DNA from: Candidatus Aerophobota bacterium
GTDB lineage: Bacteria > Aerophobota > Aerophobia > Aerophobales > AE-B3A
Reading direction: 5' to 3'
Assembly (NCBI GenBank): GCA_030602545.1
Contig: JAUVZN010000003.1
Coordinates: forward strand, 1-32,476
DNA: 32,476 bases
Shown: positions 3,986-29,444 of the stretch, in pieces
Numbering within the stretch: the stretch's first letter is position 1
Layout: every line of letters starts with the position of its first letter
Program-made: the position numbers and the translations under genes
The notes under the pieces: model-generated
The model's input: only the letters and a program-made list of their open reading frames with translations
What the model was told of the DNA's origin: nothing
Databases searched by the model: none

Positions 3986-3986
3986 G

Positions 3987-5677: not shown

Positions 5678-5706
5678 GGAAGCCTGTTTCGGGAGGTTCA
5701 AGCAGA

Positions 5707-11838: not shown

Positions 11839-12267
11839 ATGGCCAAGGTGGAAGAATATGATATGCCTGATGAGCTTTACTACCACAAGGAGTTTATGTG
11901 GGTAAGGGTAGAAGGTGAGGAGGCAGTGGTTGGTTTAAATGATTTCTCCCAGAAGCTAGCCGGTGAGATAAGTTATATTGAAATGCCTGAAGAGGGAGAT
12001 GAGGTCAAGCAGGACGAAGCCATAGGCTCTTATGAAACGGGCAAGTGGTTGGGTAAACTCTATGCACCTGTCTCCGGAGAGGTAACGGCTATGAATGAAG
12101 AAGTTGAGGATGAGCCAACTCTGGTAAATAAGGATCCTTATGGAGAAGGGTGGCTTTTTAAAATAAAGATGGGTGACCCTGCCCAGCTCGATAATTTAAT
12201 GAAGGGAGAAGAAGCGATTGAGTGGTTAAGAGGAGAAATAGCCAAACACGCCAAGGAAAAAAAATAA
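11839..12267 (+). CDS. gcvH: Glycine-cleavage H-protein-like lipoyl carrier protein
   Basis: 142 aa; lipoyl motif GSYETGKWLGKLYAPVSGEVTAMNEEVEDEP. The lysine codon at 12043-12045 aligns with the lipoylated K of canonical ESVKAASDVYAPVSGE. RBS AAAGGAGG. Confidence 0.93.
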   Translation: MAKVEEYDMPDELYYHKEFMWVRVEGEEAVVGLNDFSQKLAGEISYIEMPEEGDEVKQDEAIGSYETGKWLGKLYAPVSGEVTAMNEEVEDEPTLVNKDPYGEGWLFKIKMGDPAQLDNLMKGEEAIEWLRGEIAKHAKEKK

Positions 12268-13318: not shown

Positions 13319-13726
13319 ATGAGGACGGAAATTTCTATTAAGAACACCAAAAGTAAGTTCTTAGGTAAGGTAGAAGAGTTGAGTGGAGAGAGCATTTACG
13401 CTTGTTATCAGTGCGGGAAATGTTCTGCAGGTTGTCCCAGTATATCAGAGATGGATATATCTCCCAGTGAGATCATCCGCCTGGTTCAACTAGGTGAGGA
13501 AAAAGAGGTTTTAAATTCTAAAACAATCTGGATTTGCGCTTCCTGTTTTACCTGTGTTACCCGTTGTCCTAAAGGGGTAGATTTAGCAAAAATTATGGAA
13601 TCTCTCAGGCAGATTAATCTGAGGAAAAATGTTGATTATGTTAGTCCTTTATCTATTCCCAAGGAGATACTTTCTCAAGTTCCTCAAATAGCTTTAGTTA
13701 GCAGTCTTCGTAAATTCAGTGCTTGA
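13319..13726 (+). CDS. hdrC: HdrC-like 4Fe-4S dicluster protein (copy 1)
   Basis: Two CX2CX2CX3C motifs: CYQCGKCSAGCPS and CASCFTCVTRCPKGVD. Followed by hdrB. Confidence 0.92.
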   Translation: MRTEISIKNTKSKFLGKVEELSGESIYACYQCGKCSAGCPSISEMDISPSEIIRLVQLGEEKEVLNSKTIWICASCFTCVTRCPKGVDLAKIMESLRQINLRKNVDYVSPLSIPKEILSQVPQIALVSSLRKFSA

Positions 13727-14636
13727 TAATATTATGAAAGAGGCAAAGGTGAAGATTTCTTATTTTCCAGGATGTACCCTAAAGACGATGGCAAAAGATT
13801 TTGAAGATTCAGCCTTAGCTTCTGCATCTTGTTTAGGTATAGAGCTGGTGGAACTTCCTCGATGGAACTGTTGTGGAACAGTCTATTCTTTAACTTCTGA
13901 TGACTTAATCCATCAAGTGGCTCCTATTCGTAATCTTATTCGGGTTAAAGAACAGGAAGATAACCGGGTGGTGACTCTCTGTTCTATGTGTTATCATACT
14001 TTAAAGAGAGCAAATAAATTAGTAAGAGAAGATAGAGAGAAACTGGATAAGCTTAATAATCTTATGTACAGAGAAGATGTGAAATATGATGGAGAAATTG
14101 AAGTTTTACATCTTTTGGAGATTTTAAAAAATGAGGTAAGTTTTAATCAGATTGCCAAGAAGGTAAAGATACCTCTTAAAGAACTAAAGGTAGCTCCTTA
14201 TTATGGTTGCCTGCTCCTGCGCCCTCCAGAGATAGGGTTAGATGATGCTGAAAATCCCACTATTTTAAAGGATTTTCTGGAATCTATTGGGGCAGAAGTG
14301 ATTGATTATCCCTATCAAACAGAATGTTGTGCTTCCTATCATACTGTGGTAAATGTAGATTTGGTTGTTGAACGGGCTCACGATATTTTGAGCTCAGCTA
14401 TTAATCAGGGAGCAGAAGCAATTGTTTTAAGTTGTCCCTTATGCGGATTTAATTTGGATAATCGACAAAAAGAGATAAAAGAGAAGTTTTCAGACTTTAA
14501 AGGTATACCGGTATTCTATTTTACTCAACTTTTGGCTCTTTCTTTAGGGCTTGATGAGAAGGTTTGTGGATTTGAATTGAATTTTGTGGACCCTCGCCAT
14601 TTGTTAAAAAGTAAACATTTAACAGGTAGAGTATAA
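13719..14636 (+). CDS. hdrB: HdrB-like heterodisulfide reductase subunit B (copy 1)
   Basis: Two CCG-type domains: YFPGCTLK...WNCCGTVY...CSMCYHTL and YYGCLLLRP...TECCASYH...CPLCGFNL. Confidence 0.93.
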   Translation: MLDNIMKEAKVKISYFPGCTLKTMAKDFEDSALASASCLGIELVELPRWNCCGTVYSLTSDDLIHQVAPIRNLIRVKEQEDNRVVTLCSMCYHTLKRANKLVREDREKLDKLNNLMYREDVKYDGEIEVLHLLEILKNEVSFNQIAKKVKIPLKELKVAPYYGCLLLRPPEIGLDDAENPTILKDFLESIGAEVIDYPYQTECCASYHTVVNVDLVVERAHDILSSAINQGAEAIVLSCPLCGFNLDNRQKEIKEKFSDFKGIPVFYFTQLLALSLGLDEKVCGFELNFVDPRHLLKSKHLTGRV

Positions 14637-14637
14637 A

Positions 14638-16593
14638 ATGAGTAGAATAGGTGTTTTTGTTTGTCACTGTGGTTTAAATATTGCAGGTACAGTAGATGTA
14701 GAAAAAGCAGCCAGGCTTATGAGTAATTACCCGGGTGTTATATATGCTAGTGATTATGTATATATGTGTTCCGATCCCGGTCAAGATATGATAAAAGAGG
14801 TGGTCAAAGAGAAAAAGCTTGATGGTATAGTGGTAGCTGCTTGCTCACCCACAATGCACGAGATCACCTTTCGTAATACAGTAGCTTCCATAGGACTAAA
14901 TCCTTATAGATGTGAGATTGCCAATATAAGAGAACAATGTAGCTGGGTGCACCAAGATAATAAAGAGATAGCTACGGAAAAAGCAGTACAGATTATTGAG
15001 GCTACTGTAGAAAAATTGAAGTTAGACAAATCTCTCGTTCCTCTAAGTATTCCCATTACTAAAAAAGCCCTGGTCATCGGAGGAGGAATAGCTGGTATTC
15101 AAGCTTCTTTAGATATTGCTGATAGTGGATATGAGGTTGTTTTAGTAGAGAAGAATCAGTCGATTGGGGGACACATGCTTCAACTTTCAGAAACTTTTCC
15201 TACCCTCGATTGCCCTCAATGTATTGCTACTCCAAGGATGGTCCAGGTAGGTCAGCATCCAAAGATAAAACTTCTTGCCTATTCGGAGGTGGAAGAAGTC
15301 TCCGGTTATGTGGGGAATTTCAAAGTAAAAATTAGGAGAAAAGTTTCTTTTGTTGATTGGGATAAATGCACGGGTTGCGGTCTCTGTATAGAAAAATGTC
15401 CGGTAAAGGTTCTTTCGGAATTTGATGAGTTTTTAGCTAAAAGGAAAGCTATTTACACTCTATTTCCCCAGGCTGTTCCTAATAAACCTGTGATTGATAG
15501 TAATAATTGCCTTTATTTCACTAAAGGAAAATGTAGGGCCTGTGAGAAGAATTGCTCAGTAAAAGCTATCAATTTTGAACAAAAAGACTCTTTCATTGAA
15601 GAGGATGTAGGGGCAATCATTGTAGCCACGGGTTATGATCTTATGGATAAAGCAGAAATTGGTGAATATGGATATGGAAAATATGAGGATGTGATAGATG
15701 GTTTACAGGCAGAAAGAGTCCTTGCTCCTGCTGGTCCTACCAATGGTATACCTTATAGACCCTCCGATGGTAAGATTCCTAAAGAAGTGGTGTTTATTCA
15801 ATGTGTAGGTTCACGAGACCCGGAGCATTATTATCCATATTGTTCAAAGGTATGTTGTATGTATACTATTAAACAGGCTATGCTTTATAAACACGCTGTT
15901 CCTGATGGTCAGGCTTATGTATTTTATATGGATATTCGGTGCAACGGAAAGGGATATGAGGAATTTCTTCAGAGAGGAATAGAAGAAGACAGGATTCTTT
16001 ATATAAGAGGTAGGGTTTCCAAAGTATTTAAGGATGGAGATAAAATCGAAGTTTGGGGAGCGGATACACTTACGGGAAGGAAGATTGAAATTTCGGCGGA
16101 TATGGTTGTTCTGGCTATGGCTATGGTTCCCAGCCAAGGGGTAAAGAAATTAGCTGAGAAATTGAGACTGGCTACAGATGAGTATGGTTTCTTAACAGAA
16201 GCTCATCCTAAGCTTCGTCCGGTTGAAAGTCTTACTGCCGGCTGTTTTCTTGCTGGAGCTGCTCAGGCACCAAAAGATATTCCTGAAGCTGTGGCTCAGG
16301 CATCCGGGGCGGCAAGTAAGGTGCTCAGTCTTTTTTCTCAAGATGTATTTTACCACGAGCCGATTATAGGCAGTGTTGATGAGGAAGTCTGTGTAGGATG
16401 TGGCAACTGTGTAAATATTTGTGCTTATGATGCCGTTGAACTTGATTTAGTAACCAAGGTAGCCAAGGTTAATCCAGCTCTTTGTGAAGGGTGCGGTGCC
16501 TGTAGTGCTGCCTGTCCTTCGGGAGCAATGCAACAGAACAATTTTGGCAAAAGGCAGATATTTGAAATGGTAGATGCTTTTACTAAAGGTTAA
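14638..16593 (+). CDS. hdrA: HdrA-like FAD/Fe-S subunit (copy 1)
   Basis: 651 aa; IGVFVCHCGLNIAGTVDV, VVAACSPTMHE, FAD site VIGGGIAGIQASLDIADSGYEVVLVEK, FIQCVGSRD, and C-terminal ferredoxin motifs CVGCGNCVNICAY and CEGCGACSAACPSGAMQ. Confidence 0.95.
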   Translation: MSRIGVFVCHCGLNIAGTVDVEKAARLMSNYPGVIYASDYVYMCSDPGQDMIKEVVKEKKLDGIVVAACSPTMHEITFRNTVASIGLNPYRCEIANIREQCSWVHQDNKEIATEKAVQIIEATVEKLKLDKSLVPLSIPITKKALVIGGGIAGIQASLDIADSGYEVVLVEKNQSIGGHMLQLSETFPTLDCPQCIATPRMVQVGQHPKIKLLAYSEVEEVSGYVGNFKVKIRRKVSFVDWDKCTGCGLCIEKCPVKVLSEFDEFLAKRKAIYTLFPQAVPNKPVIDSNNCLYFTKGKCRACEKNCSVKAINFEQKDSFIEEDVGAIIVATGYDLMDKAEIGEYGYGKYEDVIDGLQAERVLAPAGPTNGIPYRPSDGKIPKEVVFIQCVGSRDPEHYYPYCSKVCCMYTIKQAMLYKHAVPDGQAYVFYMDIRCNGKGYEEFLQRGIEEDRILYIRGRVSKVFKDGDKIEVWGADTLTGRKIEISADMVVLAMAMVPSQGVKKLAEKLRLATDEYGFLTEAHPKLRPVESLTAGCFLAGAAQAPKDIPEAVAQASGAASKVLSLFSQDVFYHEPIIGSVDEEVCVGCGNCVNICAYDAVELDLVTKVAKVNPALCEGCGACSAACPSGAMQQNNFGKRQIFEMVDAFTKG

Positions 16594-16691: not shown

Positions 16692-17453
16692 ATGAAGAAA
16701 GAAAAGAGTATTATGGAAAAAATTGCTGAGGCAAATAAGACAGTTACCAAAGGGGTGGATGAGAAAGAGGTAAAACACTGGGTAACAATTTACATAATGG
16801 GAAAACCATGCAGGGTTCCAGCGGCTCTGACAATTATGCAGGCTATGGAGTATGCCGGGTATAAATTTATCAGGTCTTGCGGGTGCAGAGCAGGATTTTG
16901 TGGAGCTTGTTCCACTGTGTACAGAGAGAAAGGAGAATATAAACTCCAGACCGCTATGGCCTGTCAAACAAGAGTTGAGGATGGGATGTATCTGGTTCAA
17001 ATTCCATTTGCTCCAGCAGAAAAAGCTATTTATGATATTAATGAAGAAGAATATGATATATCCGTATTTTTCAAATATTACCCGGAAGTTGCCAGATGTG
17101 TCTCTTGTAATACTTGTACAAAATCATGCCCTCAGGATCTTGAAGTAATGGATTATGTTCAAGCAGCAATCAAAGGTGATTTTGCTCAAGTGGCTGAGGG
17201 CTCCTTTGAATGTATTCAATGTGGACTTTGTGCCATGAGGTGCCCTGCTGATATTGTGCAATATCATCTGGCTCAATTAGCAAGAAGAATGTATGGAAGA
17301 TATGGCTCTCTTGAAGAAAAAAATGTTAAAAAAAGGGTCGAGGAAATAAAAAAAGGTAAGTATGACAAGGAGTTTGATAGAGTTATGAGTCTTGGTGGCA
17401 CCGAGTTTAAGAATCTTTATACAGAACAACAAAGGACACGTGAAGTTTACTAA
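16692..17453 (+). CDS. Soluble fumarate reductase/succinate dehydrogenase-type iron-sulfur subunit (TfrB-like N-terminal part)
   Basis: [2Fe-2S] motif CGCRAGFCGAC...ACQ, then CVSCNTCTKSCPQ and CIQCGLCAMRCPA. No predicted membrane segment. Confidence 0.8.
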   Translation: MKKEKSIMEKIAEANKTVTKGVDEKEVKHWVTIYIMGKPCRVPAALTIMQAMEYAGYKFIRSCGCRAGFCGACSTVYREKGEYKLQTAMACQTRVEDGMYLVQIPFAPAEKAIYDINEEEYDISVFFKYYPEVARCVSCNTCTKSCPQDLEVMDYVQAAIKGDFAQVAEGSFECIQCGLCAMRCPADIVQYHLAQLARRMYGRYGSLEEKNVKKRVEEIKKGKYDKEFDRVMSLGGTEFKNLYTEQQRTREVY

Positions 17454-17467
17454 AAAGGAGGAAAGAT

Positions 17468-19132
17468 TTGGCTGAACTTAAATTCATAGGCGGTTATCCT
17501 GAATATATGCGTGAATCAATCAAGCTTGTTGAAAGGACACGACCAGAGAGAATAGGAAAATTGCCTCCTCAGATGACCCCTGAGGAGAGAGAAGAAATTT
17601 TAAATCGTTATCATCCGGATTACGTTCCCGGCGGCAAAAGATGTATAAAAATTGGTCCCAATCGAGGAGACATCGCTCCTAACGAAGTAGTGGATCTGCT
17701 TGAGGCATATCCAGTGATAGACCCTGAAGAGATTGATCTAAGTGAAGTGGATTATGAACCGGATATTTTAATAATAGGAGGTGGTCTTGCGGGAACAAGC
17801 GCTGCTCTTCTGGCAAATGATTATGGAATTCCTGCAGAGAAGATTTTGCTTACCAATAAACTAAGACATGGAGATGCTAACTCTATGATGGCCCAAGGTG
17901 GTACTCAGGCAGCAGACCGCCCAGAAGATAGTCCACTAATTCATTATATTGATGGTCTGGGGGGAGGGCATTTTACGAATAAGCCTGATGTACTAAGAGC
18001 GCTTGTGGAAGATGCTCCTCTGGTAATGCAGTGGCTTGAGAAGCTTGGAGCTATATTTGATAAAGACCCTGATGGTAATTTTATGGAACTAACAGGTGGC
18101 GGCACCTCAAGAAGGAGGATGCACGCTTGCAGGGATTATACGGGAATGGAGGAGCTGCGAGTTCTAAGGGATGAGTTTAGAAATAGAAAAATTCCGGTTC
18201 TTGAATTTTATGCGGCTGTTGAACTTATTACTAATTCTGAGAATAAAGTAGCTGGTGCAGTCTTGTGGGGTCTGGAAACAGGGGACTATAAAATTGTAAA
18301 GGCTAAAGCAACTATCCTGGCTACCGGTGGTTTCGGAAGGCTTCATATAAGAGGATTCCCAACCACTAACCATTATGGTGCCACTTGTGATGGAGTTGTT
18401 CTTGCATATCATGTTGGAGCAAAGTTAAGGGATGCGGATACTGTTCAATATCATCCTACTGGAGCTGCGTATCCTCAGCAAATAATAGGCCTTCTTCTTA
18501 CTGAAAAATTAAGAACCAGCGGAGCCCAGCCAGTGAATAAAGACGGTGAAGCATTTGTATTTCCTCTTGAACCACGGGATGTAGAAGCTTCTGCCTTTAT
18601 AAGAGAATGTTATACCAGGGATAAGGGAATGGTGACACCTACAGGAATGAGAGGAATATGGTTAGACACTCCTCTTATTGATATTATTAATGGTGAAGGT
18701 AGAACTGAACGTTCTTTTCCAGCTATGGTGAGGATGTTTAAAAGATTTGGAGTTGATATGATAAAAGACCCTGTCCTTGTTTTCCCCACACTTCATTATC
18801 AGAATGGGGGGGTGGAGACAGACCCTGAAGGGAAGACAAATATAGAAGGCTTGTTTGTTGCCGGTGAGATATCAGGTGGTGTGCATGGCAAGAATAGACT
18901 TATGGGGAACTCAACTCTTGATTGTATGGTTTTTGGTAGAAGAGCGGGAATGTATAGTGCGGAATATGTAAAATTGGCTAAAAGCAACGGAAAACTATCC
19001 TTAGAGCATGTCAAAAAATATGTAAATATGGTCAAAGAAGCTGGTATAAAGTCTGAGAGAAAGGCTCCCATACTTCTTCCAGAGTATAGAGGCAGAGCAG
19101 TATTAGCAAGAAAAATTGATATATTTTATTAA
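17468..19132 (+). CDS. Fumarate reductase/succinate dehydrogenase flavoprotein-family subunit
   Basis: 554 aa, TTG start after AAAGGAGG; IIGGGLAGTSAALLA, MMAQGGTQAA, LHYQNGGVETDPEG, GEISGGVHGKNRLMGNSTLDCMVFGRRAG. Confidence 0.85.
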   Translation: MAELKFIGGYPEYMRESIKLVERTRPERIGKLPPQMTPEEREEILNRYHPDYVPGGKRCIKIGPNRGDIAPNEVVDLLEAYPVIDPEEIDLSEVDYEPDILIIGGGLAGTSAALLANDYGIPAEKILLTNKLRHGDANSMMAQGGTQAADRPEDSPLIHYIDGLGGGHFTNKPDVLRALVEDAPLVMQWLEKLGAIFDKDPDGNFMELTGGGTSRRRMHACRDYTGMEELRVLRDEFRNRKIPVLEFYAAVELITNSENKVAGAVLWGLETGDYKIVKAKATILATGGFGRLHIRGFPTTNHYGATCDGVVLAYHVGAKLRDADTVQYHPTGAAYPQQIIGLLLTEKLRTSGAQPVNKDGEAFVFPLEPRDVEASAFIRECYTRDKGMVTPTGMRGIWLDTPLIDIINGEGRTERSFPAMVRMFKRFGVDMIKDPVLVFPTLHYQNGGVETDPEGKTNIEGLFVAGEISGGVHGKNRLMGNSTLDCMVFGRRAGMYSAEYVKLAKSNGKLSLEHVKKYVNMVKEAGIKSERKAPILLPEYRGRAVLARKIDIFY

Positions 19133-19191: not shown

Positions 19192-22100
19192 ATGGAGAAA
19201 AATGTTGGGGCGGTAATGGTAGTTGGCGGCGGAATCGGCGGAATTCAGGCCTCTTTGGATCTGGCAGAATCCGGATTTAAAATATATTTAGTTGATAAAA
19301 AACCTGGTATTGGTGGAGTGATGGCACAACTGGACAAAACTTTTCCTACCAATGATTGTTCAATGTGTATTCTTTCTCCAAAACTTTTGGGAACAGGAAG
19401 AGATGAGAATATTGAAATTATGAGTTACACGGAAGTAGAAAGAGTGGAAGGCGAAGCAGGAGATTTTAAGGTTACTTTAAGGAAAAAACCCCGATATGTA
19501 GATCTAGATAAATGCACTGGCTGTGCAGAGTGTGTGGAGAGCTGTCCTGTAGAAGTTTTAACTGAGTTTGAGGAGGGTTTAAGCAACAGGAAAGCTATTT
19601 ATCGATTGTACCCTCAGGTAGTTCCCAATGTTTTTACTATAGATAAAAATGAAAATAAACCTCCCTGTAGATTAACCTGCCCGGGAGGAGTAAATGTGCA
19701 AGGTTACATCGCTTTAATTTCCCAGGGTAAATTTAAGGAAGCTTATGAGTTAATCAGGGAGAGAGTTCCTTTTCCGGGAGTTTTGGGTCGTATCTGTCAT
19801 CATCCTTGTGAAGAGAAGTGTAATAGGAAGGATTTTGATGAACCGTTAGCTATTGCCTCTTTAAAAAGGTTTGTTGCTGATTATGTAGCTGAGCATCAAG
19901 AAGAACTTCTCTCTCCCAAAAAGGATGAAGAAAAAGAGTCTAAAGAGCCTCCAAAAATTAGAGAGGAAAAAGTAGCTATTATTGGAGCCGGGCCAGCGGG
20001 ACTGACCTGTGCTTACGATTTAGCGAAGTTAGGATACAAAGTTACTGTATTTGAAGCTCAAAGCTCTCCCGGAGGGATGATGTATGCAGGGATTCCCGGA
20101 TATCGCCTATCCAAAGAAGTTCTGAAAAGGGAGATTAAACAGATTGAAGAGATAGGGGTAAAGATTCTTCTTAATACCCCTATTCGCTCAAAAGAGGAGT
20201 TCGAGAAATTAAGGAGGAATTATCAGGCGATATTTACTGCCATTGGAGCCCGGAAAAGCAAGAAATTAAGATTGGAGGGCTCAGATTTAAAAGGTGTACT
20301 TTATGGAGTAGAATTTCTTAAACATGTCAATGAAGGAAAAGAGATTACCATAGGAGAAAGAGTAGCCGTAATTGGTGGAGGAAATGTGGCCATTGATGTA
20401 GCTTTATCCTCATTGAGAGTGGGAGCAGAGGAGGTTCATCTCTTCTGTCTTGAGTCTCGTGAGGAGATGCCAGCATTTGAATGGGAAATTGAAGAAGCAG
20501 TAAGGGAGGGAATAAACCTTCATTGTTCCAGAGGACCAAAGAGGATTATAGGTAAAGAGGAAAAAGTTGGTGGATTGGAAACTATTCTTTGTAGCTCAGT
20601 TTTTGATGCTGAAGGAAGGTTTAGCCCCAAGTTTAAAGAGAAAACGGAGTCAACTATTGATGTAGATACAGTAATAATCGCCATAGGTCAAGAAGCGGAT
20701 TTTGCAGGATTTAAGGAAGTTAGAATTACTCCTCACCAGACTATCGATGTGGATAAGATTAGTTTAGCTACTTCTGTTCCCGGTGTCTTTGCTGGAGGTG
20801 ATGTAGTCAGTGGTCCCGCTTCAGTAATTGAAGCTATAAGTCAGGGACATGAGGCAGCTATCTCCATTGATAGATCTTTAAAATCTGAAGACTTAATCGA
20901 AGGCAGAGAAAAGATAGAGGAAGAAGCAGCGGAAGCTCCAGAAAAAGAAGTTGCCTTAGAAAAGAGAGAAATAATGCCTGCTCTTTCTCTCCAGGATAGA
21001 AAAAGGGATTTTAAAGAGATTGAGTTGGGATTCACTGAAAAGATGGCAATAGATGAGGCAAAGAGATGTCTTGACTGTGGTATCTGTTCGGAGTGCTTAG
21101 AGTGTGTGAAGACCTGTAAAGCAGAAGCAATCCTTCCTGATATGGTTGAAGAGAAAGTGGAAATAAAGGTTGGTTCCATTATCCTCTCTTTTGGTTTTGA
21201 TGAATTTAATCCGAGGGTAAAAGGAGAGTATGGATATGGGAGATTTCCTAATGTGATATCCAGTATTGAATTTGAGAGAATTTTATCTGCCTCAGGCCCC
21301 TATGAAGGTCAGGTAGTGAGACCCTCGGATAAGAAATTACCTAAGAAAATTGCCTGGATTCAGTGTGTGGGCTCGCGGGATATAAAATCTGGCTATCCCT
21401 ATTGTTCGTCTGTTTGCTGTATGTATGCTACCAAGGAGGCAGTTATTGCTAAAGAACATGCGGGTTCTGAGCTTACCTGCCATATTTACTTTATGGATAT
21501 GCGCTGTTTTGGTAAGGATTTTGATAAATATTATGAGAGAGCAGAGAATGAGCATGGGATAGAATACAGGAGATGCAGAGTCTCCTCTGTAGAGGAAGAC
21601 CTCCCAACAGATAACTTAAGAATAAAGTATGAGACTGAAGAGGGGAATTTAAAAGAAGAAGAGTATGATTTAGTAGTGTTATCGGTTGGTCTAACGCCTT
21701 CTGAGGATGTATTAAGGATAAGTGAAAAGTTAGGCCTTCAATTAAATGAGTATAACTTCATTAAATCAGATGAGCTATTTCCTGTAGACACAACAAGAAA
21801 AGGAATATATGCTTGTGGAGCAATTTTAGAGCCAAAAGATATCCCGGAGACAGTAACTCAGGCAAGCGGAGCTGCAGCCAGGGCCTCATCTTTGCTTTCC
21901 TCTGCTCGGAGAACTTTAATCAAGGAAAAGGAGTATCCCCCAGAGATAGATGTGAGTGGAGAGGCTCCAAGAATAGGGGTATTCGTCTGCCACTGTGGAA
22001 TAAATATTGGAGGGGTGGTTGATGTTCCCGCTGTTGTTGAATATACCAAGAGATTACCCAATGTAGTTTATGCTGAAGATAATCTTTATACCTGTTCCCA

Positions 22101-23634
22101 GGATACCCAGGAAAGAATAAAGGAAGCCATAAAGGAGCATAAATTAAACAGAGTGGTAGTTGCTTCTTGCACTCCAAGAACTCACGAGCCTCTTTTCCAG
22201 GAGACCATAAGGGAAGCAGGCTTAAACCCTCATCTTTTTGAGATGGCTAATATTCGTGACCAGGATTCCTGGGTTCATATGAGAGAGCCAGAAAAAGCTA
22301 CGGAAAAAGCCAAAGATTTAGTAAGAATGGCGGTGGCAAAAGCTTGTTTAATAGAGTCCTTACCTAGTTTTTCCTCAGAAGTTATTCAGAAAGGGCTTGT
22401 TATTGGAGGGGGTTTAGCGGGAATGATAGCTGCCTTAAATATAGCTGAACAGGAGTTTGAGGTATATCTTATGGAAAAGGAAGCCGAGTTAGGGGGAAAT
22501 TTAAGAAATCTTCATTATACTCTGGAGAACGAAGATATGCAGAGTTATCTGAAGTCGATAGTTAAAGAGGTAGAAGAGAATCCGAAAATCAAAGTATACA
22601 GGAATGTAAATATCAAAAGTGTAGAAGGATATGTAGGAAACTTTAAGACAACCATAGTACAAAATGAGGAAACTGAAAAGATAGAACTAGAACATGGAGT
22701 AATAGTTGTAGCTACCGGTGCTAAAGAGTCAAAGCCTAAAGAATATTTATATGGAGAAGATGAGAGAATAGTTACTCAGTTAGAACTTGAAGAGATGTTA
22801 GCCAGGCCCGATTCCAAAATTCCCACTCTCAACACTATAGTGATGATTCAATGTGTGGGCTCCAGAGAGAATGAGAGACCCTATTGCAGCCGGGTATGTT
22901 GCAGTGATGCAATGAAGAATGCTCTCAAGATGAAAAAAGAGAATCCTAGGGCAAATATATTTATTTTATATAGAGATATGAGAACCTATGGCTTTAAAGA
23001 AAGCTTCTATCAAGAATCTCGGGAGAAAGGAGTAGTTTTTATAAGATATGATAAGGATAAAAAGCCTTATGTAACCAGAGACGCTGAGGGTTTAACAGTA
23101 GAAGTTTTGGATCCTATTCTTAAAGAGAAACTTCGTATAACTGCTGATCTTCTGGTATTGAGTACAGCTATTATTCCTAATGAAGATAACCAAACTCTTG
23201 CTCAATTATTAAAGGTTCCTTTAACAGAGGATGGATTTTATTTAGAAGCTCATGTGAAACTCCGCCCCGTAGATTTTTCTACTCGGGGTATATTTTTAGC
23301 AGGAATGGCTCATGGTCCAAAGTTTATCAAGGAGACTATTTCTCAAGCTTATGCTGCTGCTGAGAAAGCCTGCAGTGTAATTTGCAAAGATCGTGTTGAG
23401 GCAGAGGCAATTATTGCCCAAGTGAATGAGAGATGGTGCCGGGGATGTGGTATATGTGTCTCAGCATGTCCCTATGAAGCTATAAGTATAGATGAGGAGA
23501 CTAATTTAGCCAAGGTAACCGAGGTGCTTTGTCAGGGTTGTGGTGCCTGTAGCGCTGCTTGTCCCAGTGGAGCTATTCAACAGAAGGGTTTTCAAAGAAA
23601 TCAGATTCTTTCCATGGTGGATATAGCACTATAA
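19192..23634 (+). CDS. hdrA: Giant HdrA protein: HdrA with internal GltD/NfnB-like NAD(P)H-FAD module, fused to a second HdrA
   Basis: ORF track 19177 (GTG); ATG 19192 also plausible. First FAD site VVGGGIGGIQASLDLAESG. Inserted GltD region from PPCRLTCPGGVNVQGYIALISQGKFKEAYELI through VAIIGAGPAGLTCAYDLAKLGYKVTVFEA to VPGVFAGGDVVSGPASVIEAISQG. HdrA resumes at YGYGRFPNVISSIEFERIL. Second HdrA IGVFVCHCGINIGGVVDV...VIGGGLAGMIAALNIAEQ. C-terminal CRGCGICVSACPYEAISI and CQGCGACSAACPSGAIQ. Confidence 0.93.
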   Translation: MEKNVGAVMVVGGGIGGIQASLDLAESGFKIYLVDKKPGIGGVMAQLDKTFPTNDCSMCILSPKLLGTGRDENIEIMSYTEVERVEGEAGDFKVTLRKKPRYVDLDKCTGCAECVESCPVEVLTEFEEGLSNRKAIYRLYPQVVPNVFTIDKNENKPPCRLTCPGGVNVQGYIALISQGKFKEAYELIRERVPFPGVLGRICHHPCEEKCNRKDFDEPLAIASLKRFVADYVAEHQEELLSPKKDEEKESKEPPKIREEKVAIIGAGPAGLTCAYDLAKLGYKVTVFEAQSSPGGMMYAGIPGYRLSKEVLKREIKQIEEIGVKILLNTPIRSKEEFEKLRRNYQAIFTAIGARKSKKLRLEGSDLKGVLYGVEFLKHVNEGKEITIGERVAVIGGGNVAIDVALSSLRVGAEEVHLFCLESREEMPAFEWEIEEAVREGINLHCSRGPKRIIGKEEKVGGLETILCSSVFDAEGRFSPKFKEKTESTIDVDTVIIAIGQEADFAGFKEVRITPHQTIDVDKISLATSVPGVFAGGDVVSGPASVIEAISQGHEAAISIDRSLKSEDLIEGREKIEEEAAEAPEKEVALEKREIMPALSLQDRKRDFKEIELGFTEKMAIDEAKRCLDCGICSECLECVKTCKAEAILPDMVEEKVEIKVGSIILSFGFDEFNPRVKGEYGYGRFPNVISSIEFERILSASGPYEGQVVRPSDKKLPKKIAWIQCVGSRDIKSGYPYCSSVCCMYATKEAVIAKEHAGSELTCHIYFMDMRCFGKDFDKYYERAENEHGIEYRRCRVSSVEEDLPTDNLRIKYETEEGNLKEEEYDLVVLSVGLTPSEDVLRISEKLGLQLNEYNFIKSDELFPVDTTRKGIYACGAILEPKDIPETVTQASGAAARASSLLSSARRTLIKEKEYPPEIDVSGEAPRIGVFVCHCGINIGGVVDVPAVVEYTKRLPNVVYAEDNLYTCSQDTQERIKEAIKEHKLNRVVVASCTPRTHEPLFQETIREAGLNPHLFEMANIRDQDSWVHMREPEKATEKAKDLVRMAVAKACLIESLPSFSSEVIQKGLVIGGGLAGMIAALNIAEQEFEVYLMEKEAELGGNLRNLHYTLENEDMQSYLKSIVKEVEENPKIKVYRNVNIKSVEGYVGNFKTTIVQNEETEKIELEHGVIVVATGAKESKPKEYLYGEDERIVTQLELEEMLARPDSKIPTLNTIVMIQCVGSRENERPYCSRVCCSDAMKNALKMKKENPRANIFILYRDMRTYGFKESFYQESREKGVVFIRYDKDKKPYVTRDAEGLTVEVLDPILKEKLRITADLLVLSTAIIPNEDNQTLAQLLKVPLTEDGFYLEAHVKLRPVDFSTRGIFLAGMAHGPKFIKETISQAYAAAEKACSVICKDRVEAEAIIAQVNERWCRGCGICVSACPYEAISIDEETNLAKVTEVLCQGCGACSAACPSGAIQQKGFQRNQILSMVDIAL

Positions 23635-23666: not shown

Positions 23667-24092
23667 TTGATGGCTAATTTTGAGCCAAAGATAGTTGGTT
23701 TTTTGTGTAATTGGTGTACCTATGCGGGAGCAGACCTTGCGGGTACTTCAAGAATGCAATATCCGCCAAATATTAGGCCTATCAGAGTGATGTGTTCGGG
23801 GTCGGTTGATTCTGCTTATGTCCTTCGGGCTTTATTAGAAGGAGCTGATGGAGTCTTTATTGGCGGATGTCATCCCGGAGATTGCCATTATGTGAGTGGA
23901 AATTATAAGGAGAGGAGAAGAATTACTGTTTTGAAAAGTATTTTGAAAACCTTAGGGTTGGATGATAATCGAGTCTGGATTAGGTGGGTCAGTGCCAGCG
24001 AAGGTAAGAGATATGCGGATACTATATCTGAGATGACATCTCATTTGAAAAAATTAGGTCCCAATCCTATAAGTAAGTACTGGTCTTTATAG
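23667..24092 (+). CDS. mvhD: MvhD/FlxD-type iron-sulfur subunit (hydrogenase iron-sulfur subunit family)
   Basis: FLCNWCTYAGADLAGTSRMQYPPNIRPIRVMCSGSVD...DGVFIGGCHPGDCHYVSGNYKERRR. Confidence 0.95.
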   Translation: MMANFEPKIVGFLCNWCTYAGADLAGTSRMQYPPNIRPIRVMCSGSVDSAYVLRALLEGADGVFIGGCHPGDCHYVSGNYKERRRITVLKSILKTLGLDDNRVWIRWVSASEGKRYADTISEMTSHLKKLGPNPISKYWSL

Positions 24093-24103
24093 AGGTGAAG
24101 GAA

Positions 24104-25231
24104 ATGACAAAAGAGGTAGTTATTGAGGTAAAGAATGGTAAAGTAAAAGAAGCGATTAATTCTTTTTTAAAAGGTCTTCTTGAAAAAAATCTGGTGAGTG
24201 CACTTCTAGTTTCTCGGGAGGTCCCCTCAAAAGATAATGTGGTTCAGAGTTTGGTGACTAATTCCCATGGACTAAAAGAGGCAAATGTTATTGCTCCTGT
24301 CCTTCCGGTTAATTCGGCAAGGATTATCTCTGAGATGACCAGACTCAGTCCCCATAAAAGTCCTGTAGGAATTGTTCTTAGGTCCTGTGAAATAAGAGCC
24401 TTGATAGAGCTGGTTAAATTAAAACAAGCTTCCTTAGATAATCTACTTATAATTGGAGTAGATTGCTTAGGGACCTATTCAGTTAGTGATTATCAGGGCC
24501 TCTGTAAGCAAGGTGATTCGCCTTTAGACGAACTATTAAGGAAATTTAAGGAGGAAAACGAAGATGCTAAATTAAGAGAGGCCTGTCGGGTGTGTGAATA
24601 CGCTATCCCCTCTAATGCCGATTTAGTTGTCGGCTTAATAGGGGTAGATTTTGAAAAGAATATTCTTCTTGAGTCTCGTACTGAAAAAGGAGAAGGAATT
24701 TTAGAAAAATTCTCTTTTCCAAAATTTAACCAATCAAAGGAAAGAGAAGAATCTGTCTCTAAGTATATTGATGAAAAAATAGCCAAAAGAGATGCTCTTT
24801 TTTCTCAGACAAAAAAAGAGGTAGGGAATTGGGAGAATTTGCTTTCAGTCTTTTCTACCTGCATTAGCTGTCATAATTGTATGAGAGTTTGTCCCATTTG
24901 CTATTGCAGAGAATGTTTCTTCAAGTCCCCTACTTTTGAATTTGATTCAGAAAAATACCTGGGGTGGGCTAAAAGAAAAGGCTCTATTAAAATGCCCAAA
25001 GATACTATTCTTTTTCATTTGGGGAGAATGAGTCATATGGCTACTTCCTGTGTAGGATGCGGAGTCTGTGAAGGGGCTTGTCCCAGTAATATCCCACTTC
25101 TTAGAATATTTAAAACAGTAGGCCATAATGTGCAACAGATTTTCAAGTATGTTCCCGGAAGAGATTTAGAAGAGCCATTGCCACTTACTACTTTTAAAGA
25201 AGATGAACTTCAAGGTGTGGGGGAGGAGTAA
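24104..25231 (+). CDS. FrhB/FdhB-like iron-sulfur (flavo)protein, Hdr-associated electron-input subunit
   Basis: N-terminal region GIVLRSCEIRALIELVKLKQASLDNLLIIGVDCLGTYS; CISCHNCMRVCPICYCRECFF and CVGCGVCEGACPSNIPLLRIFK. ORF track start 24095; ATG 24104 also plausible. Confidence 0.75.
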   Translation: MTKEVVIEVKNGKVKEAINSFLKGLLEKNLVSALLVSREVPSKDNVVQSLVTNSHGLKEANVIAPVLPVNSARIISEMTRLSPHKSPVGIVLRSCEIRALIELVKLKQASLDNLLIIGVDCLGTYSVSDYQGLCKQGDSPLDELLRKFKEENEDAKLREACRVCEYAIPSNADLVVGLIGVDFEKNILLESRTEKGEGILEKFSFPKFNQSKEREESVSKYIDEKIAKRDALFSQTKKEVGNWENLLSVFSTCISCHNCMRVCPICYCRECFFKSPTFEFDSEKYLGWAKRKGSIKMPKDTILFHLGRMSHMATSCVGCGVCEGACPSNIPLLRIFKTVGHNVQQIFKYVPGRDLEEPLPLTTFKEDELQGVGEE

Positions 25232-25232
25232 A

Positions 25233-25757
25233 ATGAGTGAAAATGAAGAAAAGATTATCAAGGTAAATGAATTAAACCCCAATTTTAAATATGAGATTCA
25301 AGCGCAACCCGGAGGCGAGAATATTACTCGCTGCTTTGCCTGTGGCACCTGCAGCGCTGCCTGTCCTGTGAGAGAGGTAAACGAGAAGTATAATCCCCGA
25401 AAGATTATTAGAATGGCTTTATTGGGAATGAAAGAGAGGGTTCTTTCCAGCGATTTTATCTGGCTCTGTTCCAGCTGTTATACCTGCTATGAGAGATGTC
25501 CCCAGGATGTAAGAATTACAGAACTGATGAATGCTATGAAAAATATAGCTGTAAAAGAAGGATATATTCATCCATCTTTTGTAGCTCAAATGGAGGCTTT
25601 AAACTCTCATGGGAGACTTTATGAAATGGGGGAGTTCGATAATAAAAAGCGAGTAAAGGTTGGTCTTCCTCCCATAGAGGAAACTGCCGAGGATACCAAA
25701 AAATTATTTAAACAGGAAGGTGTGGATAAACTTATTGAGTTTAAGGAGGGAGGATAA
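25233..25757 (+). CDS. hdrC: HdrC-like 4Fe-4S dicluster protein (copy 2)
   Basis: RCFACGTCSAACPVREVNEKYNPRKIIRMALLG and LCSSCYTCYERCPQDVRITELMNAMKNIA. Start at ATG 25233 after GGGAGGAG. Confidence 0.94.
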   Translation: MSENEEKIIKVNELNPNFKYEIQAQPGGENITRCFACGTCSAACPVREVNEKYNPRKIIRMALLGMKERVLSSDFIWLCSSCYTCYERCPQDVRITELMNAMKNIAVKEGYIHPSFVAQMEALNSHGRLYEMGEFDNKKRVKVGLPPIEETAEDTKKLFKQEGVDKLIEFKEGG

Positions 25758-26629
25758 TGAAATACGCTTTATTTTTGGGATGTACTGTTCCGGTGAGGGC
25801 TTTAAATTATGAAGTTTCTGCAAGGAAAGTAGCCCATAAGCTAAATATAGAGTTTGTAGATATAAATGATTTTAGCTGTTGTGGTTTTCCTGTAAAATCG
25901 GTGGATAGAGATACTTTTCTTTTAATGGCCGCTAAAAATTTAAGTTTGGCGGAAGAGAAGGGTTTGGATATATGTTCTCTTTGTAGTGCCTGCACTTCCG
26001 TTTTAACAGAAGCAAATAAAGAGCTAAAAGAAGATGAAGATTTACGGAAAGGGATAAATAAGGAGCTTTCAGTTTTAGGGAGAAAATATGAGGGAAGGAT
26101 AAAAGTAAAACATTTTGCCCGAATTTTATATGAGGATGTGGGTCTGGATAAGATAAGGGAGAATTTAAGGGTTGATTTGTCTAAATTTAGCTTTGCTGCT
26201 CACTATGGCTGCCATTACTTAAAACCTTCAGAAATATACGAGGGTTTTGATGACCCCGAAAATCCAAAAACTCTGGATGAGTTAATTGAGCTGACAGGAG
26301 CAAAATCTATTCCTTATGAAGATAAAAAGGGGTGTTGTGGTGGGGGAATTTTGGGTATAGATGAAATGACAGCTCTGAAAGTAGCTAAGACTAAGCTTGA
26401 CCATGTAAAATCTGCTGGAGCAGATGCTGTCTGCTTGATTTGCCCTTTTTGTAGTATTATGTATGAAGGAAGTCAAAAAAAGATGGAGAGGGAATTTGAG
26501 GCAGAGTATAATCTACCCGTTTTATATTATCCTCAAATTCTTGGTCTTGCTCTGGGAATTCCTCAAGATGAGTTAGGGTTCCGCATGAACCGGGTTAAAC
26601 CTCGGGAAATTATCGCTCAATTGAGCTAG
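25757..26629 (+). CDS. hdrB: HdrB-like heterodisulfide reductase subunit B (copy 2)
   Basis: Two full CCG domains: FLGCTVPVRALNYE...FSCCGFP...CSLCSACTSVL and HYGCHYLKP...KGCCGGGIL...CPFCSIMY. Confidence 0.95.
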   Translation: MKYALFLGCTVPVRALNYEVSARKVAHKLNIEFVDINDFSCCGFPVKSVDRDTFLLMAAKNLSLAEEKGLDICSLCSACTSVLTEANKELKEDEDLRKGINKELSVLGRKYEGRIKVKHFARILYEDVGLDKIRENLRVDLSKFSFAAHYGCHYLKPSEIYEGFDDPENPKTLDELIELTGAKSIPYEDKKGCCGGGILGIDEMTALKVAKTKLDHVKSAGADAVCLICPFCSIMYEGSQKKMEREFEAEYNLPVLYYPQILGLALGIPQDELGFRMNRVKPREIIAQLS

Positions 26630-26677
26630 TGCTCCTTCGGGGAAAAGTCCCGAAATATTCTTTACAGTGAGCACTAG
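26626..26677 (+). repeat. Nested inverted repeat (possible structured RNA or terminator) at the end of hdrB copy 2
   Basis: Outer perfect 9-bp arms CTAGTGCTC (26626-26634) / GAGCACTAG (26669-26677). Inner arms TTCGGG (26636-26641) / CCCGAA (26649-26654). Confidence 0.6.
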
Positions 26678-26758: not shown

Positions 26759-28027
26759 ATGAAGGAAATAGAGTTTCCCAGTATGGCAGGCATCCGGCAG
26801 AAACTCGAGGCTCCGAGATTAGAGAATATTGCTCACGAGCTAAGAGAGGGGATGGTCAGATCCAGACTTAAGGAAAGAGTAAAACCTAATGATGAGGTGG
26901 CGGTAACCGCTGGCAGTAGAGGTATAGCCAATATTGTCCAGATCACTGCCACCATAGTAGAGGAGTTGAAGAAACTGGGAGCTCGCCCCTTCATAGTCCC
27001 CGCCATGGGATCACATGGAGGAGCCACCGCTGAAGGACAGATCGAGATCCTGGCTGGTTATGGCATTACTGAGGATTCGGTTGGAGTGCCTATTCGCTCT
27101 TCCATGGAGGTGGTAAAGATAGGAGAGATAAAGGATCAGGTTCCTGTGTTCATGGATAAGATAGCCCTAAGGAGCGATGCTATTGTTGTGGTTAATCGCA
27201 TTAAGCCCCACACTTCTTTCAGAGGTCCATTTGAGTCGGGTCTGATGAAAATGTTGGCCATTGGTTTGGGAAAACATGAAGGAGCCTCTTTGGTGCACTC
27301 TTTCGGATCCAGGGGCTTAAGAGAAATGGTTCCAGAGGCAGCCAGAGTTATGATGAGTAAAGCTAATTTTGTCCTGGGGGTTGGTATACTGGAAAATGCT
27401 TATGATGAGACAGCCAGAATTGTGGTTCTTGATCCAGAGGATTTTGAAAAAGAGGAGCCACACCTGTTGGAGGAAGCCCGCCGGCTTATGCCCCGTCTTC
27501 CTTTCGATGAGATAGATATCCTCATTGTGGATGAGTTAGGCAAAAATATCAGCGGCACGGGTATGGATACCAATATTATTGGTCGCCTCCTGATAAGAGG
27601 AGAGAAGGAATTTGAGAAGCCCAATATCAACAAGATCATCGTTCTTGATGTAACTCCTGCCTCTCATGGGAATACTTTAGGGGTGGGACTGGCTGATATT
27701 ACCACCAGAAGGCTGGTGAACAAAATTGACTATCACGCTATGTACACCAATGCCTTAACCGCGGGGTTTCTTAACCGTGTCTTTGTTCCATTGACCTGTG
27801 AGACAGACAAAGAAGCCATAACCACAGCCATAAGCACTTTTAAGAGAAAAGATCCCCAAAGCCTCAAGGTGATGAGGATAAAGAATACTCTGAAAATAGA
27901 GAAATTGTATATTTCGGAGCCTCTACTTGAGGAGGCCCGAGCAAGGGATGATATCCAGATCCTTGGTGAGATAGAACCTATGAAATTTGACTCCCAGGGC
28001 AACCTGGCGGGAGGAGACTATGCTTAA
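26759..28027 (+). CDS. DUF2088/LarA-N-like protein (lactate-racemase-domain family)
   Basis: 422 aa; AVTAGSRGIANI, FIVPAMGSHGGATAEGQ, VNRIKPHTSFRGPFESGLMKMLAIGLGKHEGA. Confidence 0.75.
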   Translation: MKEIEFPSMAGIRQKLEAPRLENIAHELREGMVRSRLKERVKPNDEVAVTAGSRGIANIVQITATIVEELKKLGARPFIVPAMGSHGGATAEGQIEILAGYGITEDSVGVPIRSSMEVVKIGEIKDQVPVFMDKIALRSDAIVVVNRIKPHTSFRGPFESGLMKMLAIGLGKHEGASLVHSFGSRGLREMVPEAARVMMSKANFVLGVGILENAYDETARIVVLDPEDFEKEEPHLLEEARRLMPRLPFDEIDILIVDELGKNISGTGMDTNIIGRLLIRGEKEFEKPNINKIIVLDVTPASHGNTLGVGLADITTRRLVNKIDYHAMYTNALTAGFLNRVFVPLTCETDKEAITTAISTFKRKDPQSLKVMRIKNTLKIEKLYISEPLLEEARARDDIQILGEIEPMKFDSQGNLAGGDYA

Positions 28028-29444
28028 ACAACTGCGTGCTATCGTAGGAGAGGAGAATGTCTCCGATGATTTGGCGGATCGGTATATCTATGGCTCAGAT
28101 GCCTCTATTCATCAAAGCTCTCCTTCAGTGGTGGTAAGGCCAGGGAGCATAAAGGAAATTCAGGAAATCTTAAGATTTGCTAACAGAGAGAAGATTCCTG
28201 TAGTGCCCAGAGGTGCGGGGACGGGAGAGTCGGGAAGCGCTGTTCCCCTGGATGGAGGAATTGTCCTGGATCTTAAACGTATGGACAAAATACTGGAAAT
28301 TCGACCCCAAGATATGTTCTGTCGGGTGGAGCCCGGCGTCATCAACGATGAGCTGAATCGTGAGCTGAAACCCTACGGGTTTTTCTTCCCTCCCACACCT
28401 GCAAGTGGAAAAGTGTGTACCATAGGAGGGATGATTGCCAACAATGCCTCGGGAATGAGAGCTATCAAGTACGGAGCCACCCGGGATGCCGTTTTAGGGC
28501 TAAAGGTGGTTTTGGCCAACGGGGACCTGGTGAGGATGGGAACCAGCACTATCATTCAAGCTTCGGGTTATCAACTGGAAAGATTGATGGTGGGAAGTGA
28601 AGGTACCCTGGGAGTTATGGTGGAGGCCACCCTGCGTCTGAAGCCGCTGCCCGAAGAAAGAGCAGTGGGTAGGGCTCTATTCTATGAGCTGAGTCAGGCA
28701 GGAGATGCTGTCTCCAAGATAATTACTGAGGGAATCGTCCCCTCGGCCTTGGAACTGATGGATGAGGTAGCCATTAAGTCAGTTAATAAGGCTCTTAAGG
28801 CTGGTCTTCCTGAAGTAGAGGCGCTGATTTTATTTGAGTGCGACGGAATTAAAGCTAGTTTCAATCATGAAATACAGAAGATAAAGAAAATATGTGAGGA
28901 TTGCGGAGCTTTTGACATCATCATTAGTGATAATCCAGAGGAGATGGAGAAGCTCTGGGAGGTAAGATCTTCCATTTTCCCCGCCACCAGTATGTACAAG
29001 GAGGATCGGATTCGGGCAACTTTAGCCGAGGATATCACCGTTCCTGTCTCCAGGCTCCCAGAGTTAGTAGAAGGGATTCACCGGATTGCCAGGGAAAACG
29101 GCATCATCATCGGAACTTATGGGCATGCGGGTGAGGGGCTTATTCACACTGCTTTTCTGGTTAATCCCCGAGTGAGCGATGAGTGGGATAGAACCCGCAA
29201 GGCTGTGGATGAGGTCTTCGCTCTGGTGCAGCACCTGGGGGGAACCACCTCCGGGGAACACGGCATAGGAATTTCCAAAGCCCCGTATTTTAAGAAGGAG
29301 AGGAAGGAGCTTCTGGAGCTTATGAGGGGAATCAAGAAGGTCTTTGATCCCCATAACATTCTCAATCCTCATAAACTCATGGATGCTCCGGAAGATTTCT
29401 TCACCGCTACCAAACTCAGATATCCAGTCAAGGAGAGGAGATGA
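28020..29444 (+). CDS. FAD-binding oxidase, GlcD/D-lactate dehydrogenase family
   Basis: VVVRPGSIKEIQEILRFANREKIPVVPRGAGTGESGSAVPLDGGIVLDLKRMDKI; GGMIANNASGMRAIKYGATRD; GTYGHAGEGLIHT; GGTTSGEHGIGISK. ATG 28020 overlaps the upstream gene end; ORF track start 27987 is internal to it. Confidence 0.95.
   Translation: MLKQLRAIVGEENVSDDLADRYIYGSDASIHQSSPSVVVRPGSIKEIQEILRFANREKIPVVPRGAGTGESGSAVPLDGGIVLDLKRMDKILEIRPQDMFCRVEPGVINDELNRELKPYGFFFPPTPASGKVCTIGGMIANNASGMRAIKYGATRDAVLGLKVVLANGDLVRMGTSTIIQASGYQLERLMVGSEGTLGVMVEATLRLKPLPEERAVGRALFYELSQAGDAVSKIITEGIVPSALELMDEVAIKSVNKALKAGLPEVEALILFECDGIKASFNHEIQKIKKICEDCGAFDIIISDNPEEMEKLWEVRSSIFPATSMYKEDRIRATLAEDITVPVSRLPELVEGIHRIARENGIIIGTYGHAGEGLIHTAFLVNPRVSDEWDRTRKAVDEVFALVQHLGGTTSGEHGIGISKAPYFKKERKELLELMRGIKKVFDPHNILNPHKLMDAPEDFFTATKLRYPVKERR

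Follow-up and report, generated by a model that had tools for sequence, protein, structure and literature searches.

The window analyzed here is the whole stretch of 32,476 nucleotides (positions 1 to 32,476) of contig JAUVZN010000003.1, GenBank assembly GCA_030602545.1, from a Candidatus Aerophobota bacterium. The gene in question is hdrL, which encodes an HdrA-type protein containing a GltD/NfnB-like module. It is one open reading frame (ORF) at 19192-23634 on the forward strand, 1480 amino acids long and without an internal stop. The start codon is ATG at 19192, GGTGAGG is present 9 nt upstream, and the same frame is open already from GTG at 19177. The gene order in the window is malic enzyme, fumarase alpha and beta, a GcvH-like carrier, a lipoate ligase-like gene, hdrC1, hdrB1, hdrA1, tfrB, tfrA, hdrL, mvhD, an frhB-like gene, hdrC2, and hdrB2.

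The domain map of HdrL was obtained from the agreement of Pfam, NCBIfam and PDB sequence searches. Pfam recognized FAD/Rossmann folds at residues 8-45, 260-552, and 1065-1178, a DPD-II/GltD Fe-S domain at 156-236, and Fer4 domains at 101-123 and 1409-1463. With phmmer against a solved HdrA (5odc), HdrL 9-153 aligned with HdrA 147-291, 632-849 with 293-510, 924-1078 with 2-156, and 1335-1476 with 503-646. The first and the second HdrA are designated as HdrA' and HdrA'', respectively, and the parts of the gene are as follows.

19192..19641, forward strand: first part of HdrA', residues 1-150, the FAD-binding first half, which maps to 5odc HdrA 147-291.
19357..19368, forward strand: DCSMC motif with C56 and C59, the latter equivalent to HdrA Cys197.
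19645..21078, forward strand: GltD/NfnB cassette, residues 152-629, within the inserted-ferredoxin loop, with its own FAD and NAD(P)H folds and two [4Fe-4S] sites.
20446..20457, forward strand: C419-L420-E421-S422, at the site of the NADPH 2'-phosphate Arg pair elsewhere.
21079..21906, forward strand: second part of HdrA', residues 630-905, with the second inserted-ferredoxin motif (C632/C635/C638/C642), the rest of the TrxR domain, and E695 and K748.
21961..22386, forward strand: N-terminal domain of HdrA'', residues 924-1065, with C933, C935, C968, and C993.
22387..23181, forward strand: TrxR/FAD domain of HdrA'' without inserted ferredoxin, residues 1066-1330, with E1200 and K1242.
23404..23631, forward strand: C-terminal 2[4Fe-4S] ferredoxin of HdrA'', from Pfam and the 5odc alignment.

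A preliminary description of the window had proposed an HdrA split by a GltD/NfnB module and fused to a second HdrA. Pfam, the 5odc alignment, and the gap left in alignments by relatives lacking GltD all agree with this layout, and the three Pfam folds and the Cys motifs agree with the three Rossmann/FAD modules and several [4Fe-4S] motifs expected there. The cassette lies in the inserted-ferredoxin loop, just as GltD had been expected to begin at the Cys-rich loop of HdrA. Its extent, estimated at about 19640-21150, is right at the start (19645) but too long at the end (21078, residue 629). HdrA does resume behind it, but C626 and C629 of the string cited for the resumption belong to GltD, and HdrA runs from C632. 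The second HdrA, expected near 21967, begins at residue 924 (21961) in the 5odc alignment.

HdrA' has neither the N-terminal domain nor the C-terminal ferredoxin, and its residues 1-150 hold the first [4Fe-4S] motif of the inserted ferredoxin (C108/C111/C114/C118). HdrA'' has both of these domains and lacks the inserted ferredoxin and the Cys197 ligand. As judged from these sequences, HdrA' and HdrA'' are complementary halves within one chain. Cys197 is a ligand given in trans by one HdrA to the N-terminal cluster of its partner, and the C-terminal ferredoxin is the side where MvhD feeds electrons in HdrABC-MvhAGD (Chadwick 2022, PMC9012536). Two TrxR (HdrA) FAD domains in one chain, a GltD cassette in the inserted-ferredoxin loop of HdrA', the absence of that ferredoxin from HdrA'', which keeps the N-terminal domain and C-terminal ferredoxin, and mvhD downstream place the protein in the HdrL/Moorella-type HdrA group. 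The whole protein falls below the NCBIfam cut-offs for canonical single HdrA and HdrA2 (1007.7 against 1100 bits and 761.2 against 1400 bits).

The Cys197 site is an in-frame TGA (selenocysteine; FPTNDCAMU) in many HdrLs from Desulfobacterota, including those at L064, L071, L072, L077, L079, L085, L087, and L089, and it is Cys in the window HdrL. This agrees with the description of HdrL1 and HdrL3 of Desulfobacterium autotrophicum as selenoproteins. PDB chain 9sfi_A has X (a non-standard letter) at this position.

The GltD cassette is, on alignment, a circularly permuted NfnB, like the corresponding parts of StnC and NfnABC. HdrL 592-626 aligns with the N-terminal segment of NfnB (8-42) and the remainder with the NfnB body. 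The permutation of this segment to the C-terminus of the cassette brings the cassette ends together, and it is also the reason for assigning C626 and C629 to GltD, HdrA being resumed at C632. By analogy with StnC and NfnB, C159/C210/C626/C629 would form one GltD [4Fe-4S] cluster, and C163/C202/C206 with K225 the other. The latter set matches the C7 cluster of StnC, whose ligands are three Cys and one Lys (K170). Of 79 HdrLs, 61 have Lys at the position of K225, 14 have His, and 3 have Arg. The GltD-like module of StnC is a non-bifurcating electron shuttle via two clusters.

Double HdrAs lacking GltD (995-1076 amino acids) align with HdrL before and after the GltD segment, which is left as a gap. 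Thus, the cassette is an insertion and not a terminal fusion. The AlphaFold2 model of HdrL residues 1-905 has a mean predicted local distance difference test score (pLDDT) of 90.2 and a predicted template modeling score (pTM) of 0.86. Foldseek with this model recovered both NfnABC/StnC/NfnB and HdrA, with a template modeling score of 0.94 for the HdrA TrxR fold to 8rvu_a (normalized to the 427-residue HdrA chain) and ~0.8 for the NfnB fold. The HdrA fold is therefore predicted to survive the insertion. A model of a GltD-less double HdrA (pLDDT 86.0, pTM 0.86) matches HdrA as well.

The window genome is a fragmented metagenome-assembled genome (MAG) of 111 contigs, 87% complete, so the fusion of separate genes by a frameshift or a misassembly had to be considered. 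Orthologs with 87% and 75% identity are present in two other genomes of the same order, each as one ORF, and a full-length paralog, 60% identical and also one ORF, lies on contig C69 of the same genome. The search for the same architecture across phyla, which the preliminary description had called for, gave at least 575 candidate loci. The 80 loci kept include complete chromosomes and are labeled as some fifteen phylum-level groups, MAG labels included. HdrA of Moorella thermoacetica is reported with the same layout (PMC9430772). These relatives rule out an artefact for practical purposes; neither a terminal fusion nor a joining error, two outcomes that would have undone the proposed architecture, was found.

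The C69 paralog has the YRRS motif (NADPH type) and follows 2-oxoacid:ferredoxin oxidoreductase-like genes (L118, G000:C69, 309-9735); it is followed by mvhD, a 4Fe-4S protein, and the neighbor family c7. At L121 (G013:C93, 1776-12164), a GltD-bearing HdrL and a GltD-less double HdrA are on one contig, each followed by mvhD.

E356 and K409 of Methanothermococcus thermolithotrophicus HdrA mark bifurcating HdrA flavins (PMC9430772). Their equivalents are present at both HdrA flavins of HdrL, E695/K748 in HdrA' and E1200/K1242 in HdrA''. E695 and K748 are invariant in all 79 HdrLs with a GltD cassette. The pair at the HdrA'' flavin is variable, with E in 43 and K in 63 of the 79.

The strand that binds the NADPH 2'-phosphate is YRRT/S in NfnB, StnC, and NfnABC. 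In the window HdrL the corresponding residues are CLES, and the NfnB-type Arg pair is absent, with LE at 420-421. Studies of Rossmann-fold cofactor specificity are the classic basis for distinguishing NADH from NADPH motifs. Since the Arg pair is replaced, CLES is read by this analogy as NADH-type, which suggests that the window HdrL most likely takes NADH. For type III HdrA, NAD was argued from the GxGxxG motif (2025, PMC12054007). The window HdrL has GAGPAG as its FAD motif and GGGNVA as its NAD(P) motif; thus, the GxGxxG criterion does not decide the nucleotide here. Both CLE-type and YRR-type HdrLs are found together at L089, a groundwater deltaproteobacterial locus. L127 and L126 encode HdrAs of ~1130-1143 amino acids with an N-terminal domain and a GltD insertion, beside a GltD-less double HdrA, and this layout looks closer to type III HdrA.

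By phylogenetic comparison, the history of the GltD cassette is different from that of its HdrA frame. The tree of the HdrA part (94 rows) requires at least 11 changes in the presence of GltD. The LE/RR motif changes at least 16 times on the same tree versus 3 times on the tree of the GltD part, and 10 versus 3 times with contigs of at least 20 kb only. In a Desulfobacterota subset (28 rows), approximately unbiased (AU) tests gave strong rejection in both directions: the ten-row LE clade seen on the GltD tree costs 823 log units under the HdrA data (p = 1e-38), and the 15-row HdrA clade costs 659 units under the GltD data (p = 2e-26). The clades were picked after the trees had been seen, but the margins are very large. 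The number of splits shared between whole trees of the partitions (15, 8, and 14) did not discriminate cleanly, and therefore supported conflicts and AU tests were used. Of the supported GltD splits, 16/36 conflict with the HdrA' tree. No supported conflict was seen between HdrA' and the N-terminal half of HdrA'', while 8/27 splits of the C-terminal half conflict. Thus, recombination is not confined to GltD, and the protein is mosaic at more than one site.

Pairwise identity steps at residues ~150 and ~645, which indicates exchange of GltD together with the second ferredoxin motif. Between the two HdrLs of the window genome, whose motifs differ, identity is 85% over residues 925-1060 and 44% over residues 400-560. 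From these alignments and trees, it seems that NADH and NADPH versions of the GltD module have replaced each other many times during evolution. A joint reading can be offered tentatively, with the odds somewhat against it. The inserted-ferredoxin loop would be a recombination socket in a constant HdrA frame. Complete GltD cassettes (~150-645, second ferredoxin cluster motif included) would come and go there, and NADH-type and NADPH-type ones would replace each other. The NADH version in this genome would serve a bifurcating fumarate reductase linked to the lipoyl carrier; the NADPH version is located beside a 2-oxoacid:ferredoxin oxidoreductase. If so, one electron-bifurcating engine has been re-wired to different nucleotide pools. 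Anaerobes near the thermodynamic limit depend on which nucleotide pool supplies their bifurcating enzymes. Exchange in a fixed socket would provide natural domain swaps, making the cofactor choice predictable from sequence and testable with chimeras.

The genes flanking hdrL are as follows.

11839..12267, forward strand: GcvH-like lipoyl carrier with the motif YETGKWLGK, a second copy besides GcvH on contig C74.
12222..13316, forward strand: lipoate-protein ligase-like gene, below the model cut-off.
13319..13726, forward strand: hdrC1.
13719..14636, forward strand: hdrB1, with two full CCG motifs.
14638..16593, forward strand: hdrA1, a complete canonical HdrA of 651 amino acids.
16692..17453, forward strand: tfrB/frdB-like Fe-S subunit without CCG domain.
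17468..19132, forward strand: tfrA/frdA-like flavoprotein, with the fumarate-site residues and with Asn in place of the flavin-linking His.
23667..24092, forward strand: mvhD (FlpD), the commonest hdrL neighbor.
24095..25231, forward strand: protein with FrhB/FdhB C-terminal domain and 4Fe-4S.
25203..25757, forward strand: hdrC2.
25757..26629, forward strand: hdrB2, with two full CCG (non-cubane cluster) motifs.

A terminator-like hairpin is located at 26636-26654, 3' of hdrB2. Farther downstream, 26759-32474 contains LarA-like, GlcD-like, and GlcF/CCG genes followed by sucC and sucD, possibly a 2-hydroxyacid oxidation set adjoining the operon. A branched-chain amino-acid-type ABC transporter operon is recognized from translations at 1743-6414.

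The hdr-tfr-hdrL core is found in four other genomes: G004 and G013, where GltD is present, and G001 (same genus) and G009, where it is absent. The operon order is kept as far as the contigs reach, in three genomes with GltD, including the window, and two without. In a complete Gemmatimonadota chromosome, hdrL and tfrAB lie within ~10 kb with other genes between them, and a tfrA-like gene is upstream of a GltD-less double HdrA on a Chloroflexi contig. The dicarboxylate and proton-delivery residues of TfrA (HPTG, TE..R, PRD, LHY, NRL) are present in 7/7 members, and the flavin-linking His is Asn in 7/7. The roles of the equivalent residues are established from work on FrdA/SdhA, and in FrdA mutants without the flavin-linking His, succinate oxidation is abolished. 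The lack of this His therefore favors fumarate reduction over succinate oxidation. The pair stands outside TfrAB as modeled, with TfrA scoring 294.6 bits against a cut-off of 718 and TfrB having no CCG domain.

Other HdrL neighborhoods contain MetF/MetV or the neighbor families c6-c7-c8, of which c8 is an NfnA/PyrK-like flavoprotein by Pfam. The nucleotide type does not predict a MetF partner (7/30 versus 12/50, Fisher p = 1). Families c7 and c8 were found only beside RR-type HdrLs (10/50 and 9/50 versus 0/30 of the LE type, uncorrected for relatedness). The window genome has RnfC, and DsrA and FTHFS gave no match in this 87% complete MAG. Sulfite reduction via Dsr, as proposed for HdrL1, is thus probably not the role here, nor was the Wood-Ljungdahl role of MetFV, a common neighbor elsewhere, retained without an FTHFS match.

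In the window and in G009, the carrier and ligase genes stand immediately before hdrC1B1A1-tfrBA; in G001, hdrC1 is preceded by the carrier. A complete glycine cleavage set (P, T, and H proteins) is encoded separately on C74 of the window genome, and its own GcvH has an ESVKA motif, versus GKWLGK in the window carrier. In total, 30 carrier loci were examined: 7 of the GKW type, 17 with other motifs, and 6 unreadable by the motif pattern. Fumarase, ligase (LplA), or HdrBC genes lie within ~1.5 kb at 6/7 GKW-type loci versus 1/17 of those with another readable motif (a ligase). LbpA of the sHdr sulfur-oxidation system is a precedent for a lipoyl carrier working with Hdr-type proteins. In Desulfobacterota, ORFs of ~300-350 amino acids with a C-terminal GcvH-like domain occur at L081, L085, L087, L091, L103, and L105, near histidine kinases, response regulators, and HdrL/MetF.

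The protein-bound lipoyl group of the GcvH-like carrier, and not a small heterodisulfide, could accordingly be the dithiol/disulfide partner of HdrB1C1, in a lipoyl-linked thiol:fumarate reductase to which HdrL supplies NADH electrons. This proposal is speculative and rather unlikely as it stands: lipoylation is a prediction, the ligase scores below its cut-off, the association is one of proximity with four of the seven GKW-type loci from close relatives of the window, and the carrier may serve another enzyme. If true, it would provide a candidate for the disulfide partner of bacterial HdrBC.

The best explanation, with a probability of roughly 0.55, is that the window HdrL is a Moorella-type HdrA/HdrL, a pseudo-heterodimer of HdrA' and HdrA'' with a plug-in GltD, which would work as the NADH port of an electron-bifurcating fumarate reductase; nucleotide, route, partner, and direction are all inferred. 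The lipoyl partner is compatible with it and adds a carrier. Hydride from NADH would pass to the GltD FAD, and single electrons would move over the two GltD [4Fe-4S] clusters and the inserted-ferredoxin clusters to the FAD of HdrA', which is the flavin with the invariant bifurcation signature. The path would then divide, with one branch via HdrBC and the other toward ferredoxin or MvhD/FrhB. Fumarate, reached via TfrAB, would most likely be the final acceptor of the high-potential branch in this operon. The result would be an NADH-dependent, ferredoxin-reducing fumarate reductase, and reduced ferredoxin (Fd) could feed the Rnf complex of the genome. The potentials are -320 mV for NADH, +33 mV for fumarate, and -400 to -500 mV for ferredoxin. 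Our own arithmetic from standard potentials gives about -33 to -53 kJ/mol for 2 NADH + fumarate + 2 Fd(ox) -> 2 NAD+ + succinate + 2 Fd(red).

This explanation is supported by the domain map, the clean insertion, the confident model, and the cluster ligands and E695/K748 conserved across the 79 HdrLs, and further by NADH oxidation in Moorella, the StnC shuttle, CLES, the tfrA-hdrL-mvhD order, the TfrA residues, and the presence of RnfC. The built-in pyridine-nucleotide port on a bifurcation-type HdrA, as suggested in the preliminary description, is well supported by the insertion, the intact modeled folds, the E/K signature, and the Moorella activity. The idea that it avoids a separate hydrogenase or formate dehydrogenase is not borne out here: MvhD and an FrhB/FdhB-like subunit, the usual partner docking parts, are still in the operon, and the same operon in a genome of the same genus lacks GltD.

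Several points weigh against the NADH-driven bifurcating reductase. The 2025 model has GltD blocking ferredoxin access (PMC12054007), which would remove ferredoxin as the low-potential acceptor at that site. A complete hdrA1 and two HdrBC pairs are in the operon, so TfrAB may use HdrA1 and not HdrL, and the GltD-less operon of the same genus indicates that the port is not essential to it. The choice of NADH rests on a motif, the E/K signature at the second HdrA flavin leaves the bifurcating flavin ambiguous, and absences from an incomplete MAG are weak. The same blocking model, together with the non-bifurcating GltD flavin of StnC, would fit a plain adaptor, in which GltD replaces ferredoxin and HdrL is a linear or reversible shuttle between NAD(P)H and HdrBC (disulfide/CCG), with any energy coupling at HdrA1 or elsewhere. 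The invariance of the E695 and K748 bifurcation signature in the 79 GltD-bearing HdrLs makes this unlikely. Malic enzyme, fumarase, and sucCD flank the operon in the window, as would suit electron confurcation, in which succinate and a low-potential donor drive NAD+ reduction in an oxidative segment of the tricarboxylic acid cycle. With standard potentials and ferredoxin at -500 mV, that direction would cost roughly 33 kJ/mol (same arithmetic), and TfrA lacks the covalent-flavin His in all members; confurcation is thus quite improbable. If the NADH-driven reading is true, a soluble, ferredoxin-reducing fumarate reductase would explain how quinone-independent fermenters could conserve energy from fumarate.

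HdrL was named by Strittmatter (2009, PMC2702500) and called unique to Db. autotrophicum. Given HdrL-type loci in some fifteen phylum-level groups, this claim no longer holds. HdrL1-3 of Db. autotrophicum are likewise Hdr/glutamate-synthase fusions with an NADH site, and mvhD follows them. HdrL1 and HdrL3 contain selenocysteine, and the gene for HdrL1 is adjacent to dsrABC; the window HdrL has Cys at the selenocysteine site of its Desulfobacterota relatives, and no DsrA was found in its genome. Neither the layout nor the port idea is a novel solution; both were already published (PMC2702500, PMC9012536, PMC12054007, PMC9430772).

In M. thermoacetica HdrA, GltD interrupts an extra N-terminal TrxR plus ferredoxin domain; the protein is described with three FADs, one NAD(P)H site, and eight predicted clusters, and an NADH:viologen activity of 190 U/mg is cited there (Dietrich et al. 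2022, PMC9430772). This subunit of the methylene-tetrahydrofolate reductase HdrCBA-MvhD-MetVF shares the GltD-interrupted first HdrA, the second HdrA without inserted ferredoxin, the three FADs, and E/K at both HdrA flavins, a likeness drawn from the published description. The partner is MetVF there and TfrAB/HdrABC in the window. By motif count, the window HdrL is expected to hold about 3 FAD and up to 9 [4Fe-4S] per chain. HdrA9-11 of ANME-1 have an NfnB-like insertion, and the same paper describes, apart from these, fusions of two HdrAs that complement each other in Cys197 and the N-terminal domain (Chadwick 2022, PMC9012536). For type III HdrA, an NADH port and two independent insertions were proposed (PMC12054007). 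Both groups share with HdrL a ~500-amino-acid NfnB/GltD insertion in the inserted-ferredoxin domain and a proposed NAD(P)H port. Type III HdrA is described as otherwise like the single-HdrA type I, while the window HdrL adds the HdrA-HdrA fusion.

StnC of Sporomusa StnABC and NfnABC (8oh5, 9bov, 9n5u) are the best sequence and fold matches of the cassette, with the NfnB N-terminal segment permuted in the same way. In StnC, GltD is fused to NuoG/FDH-like parts and has YRRT/S, whereas the window HdrL has CLES. The thiol:fumarate reductase TfrAB resembles the operon in having a TfrA-like flavoprotein and a TfrB-like Fe-S subunit beside HdrBC-type genes. It differs in that the window TfrB has no fused CCG domain, HdrB and HdrC are separate, and TfrA is under the model cut-off. 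No report of the cassette exchange, of the hdrCBA-tfrBA-hdrL-mvhD-frhB-hdrCB operon, or of a second lipoyl carrier with a ligase before an hdrL operon was found in the literature searched, which left out most subscription journals. The architecture and the NAD(P)H-port idea are already published, and the cassette exchange and the Tfr/lipoyl operon are the parts worth following.

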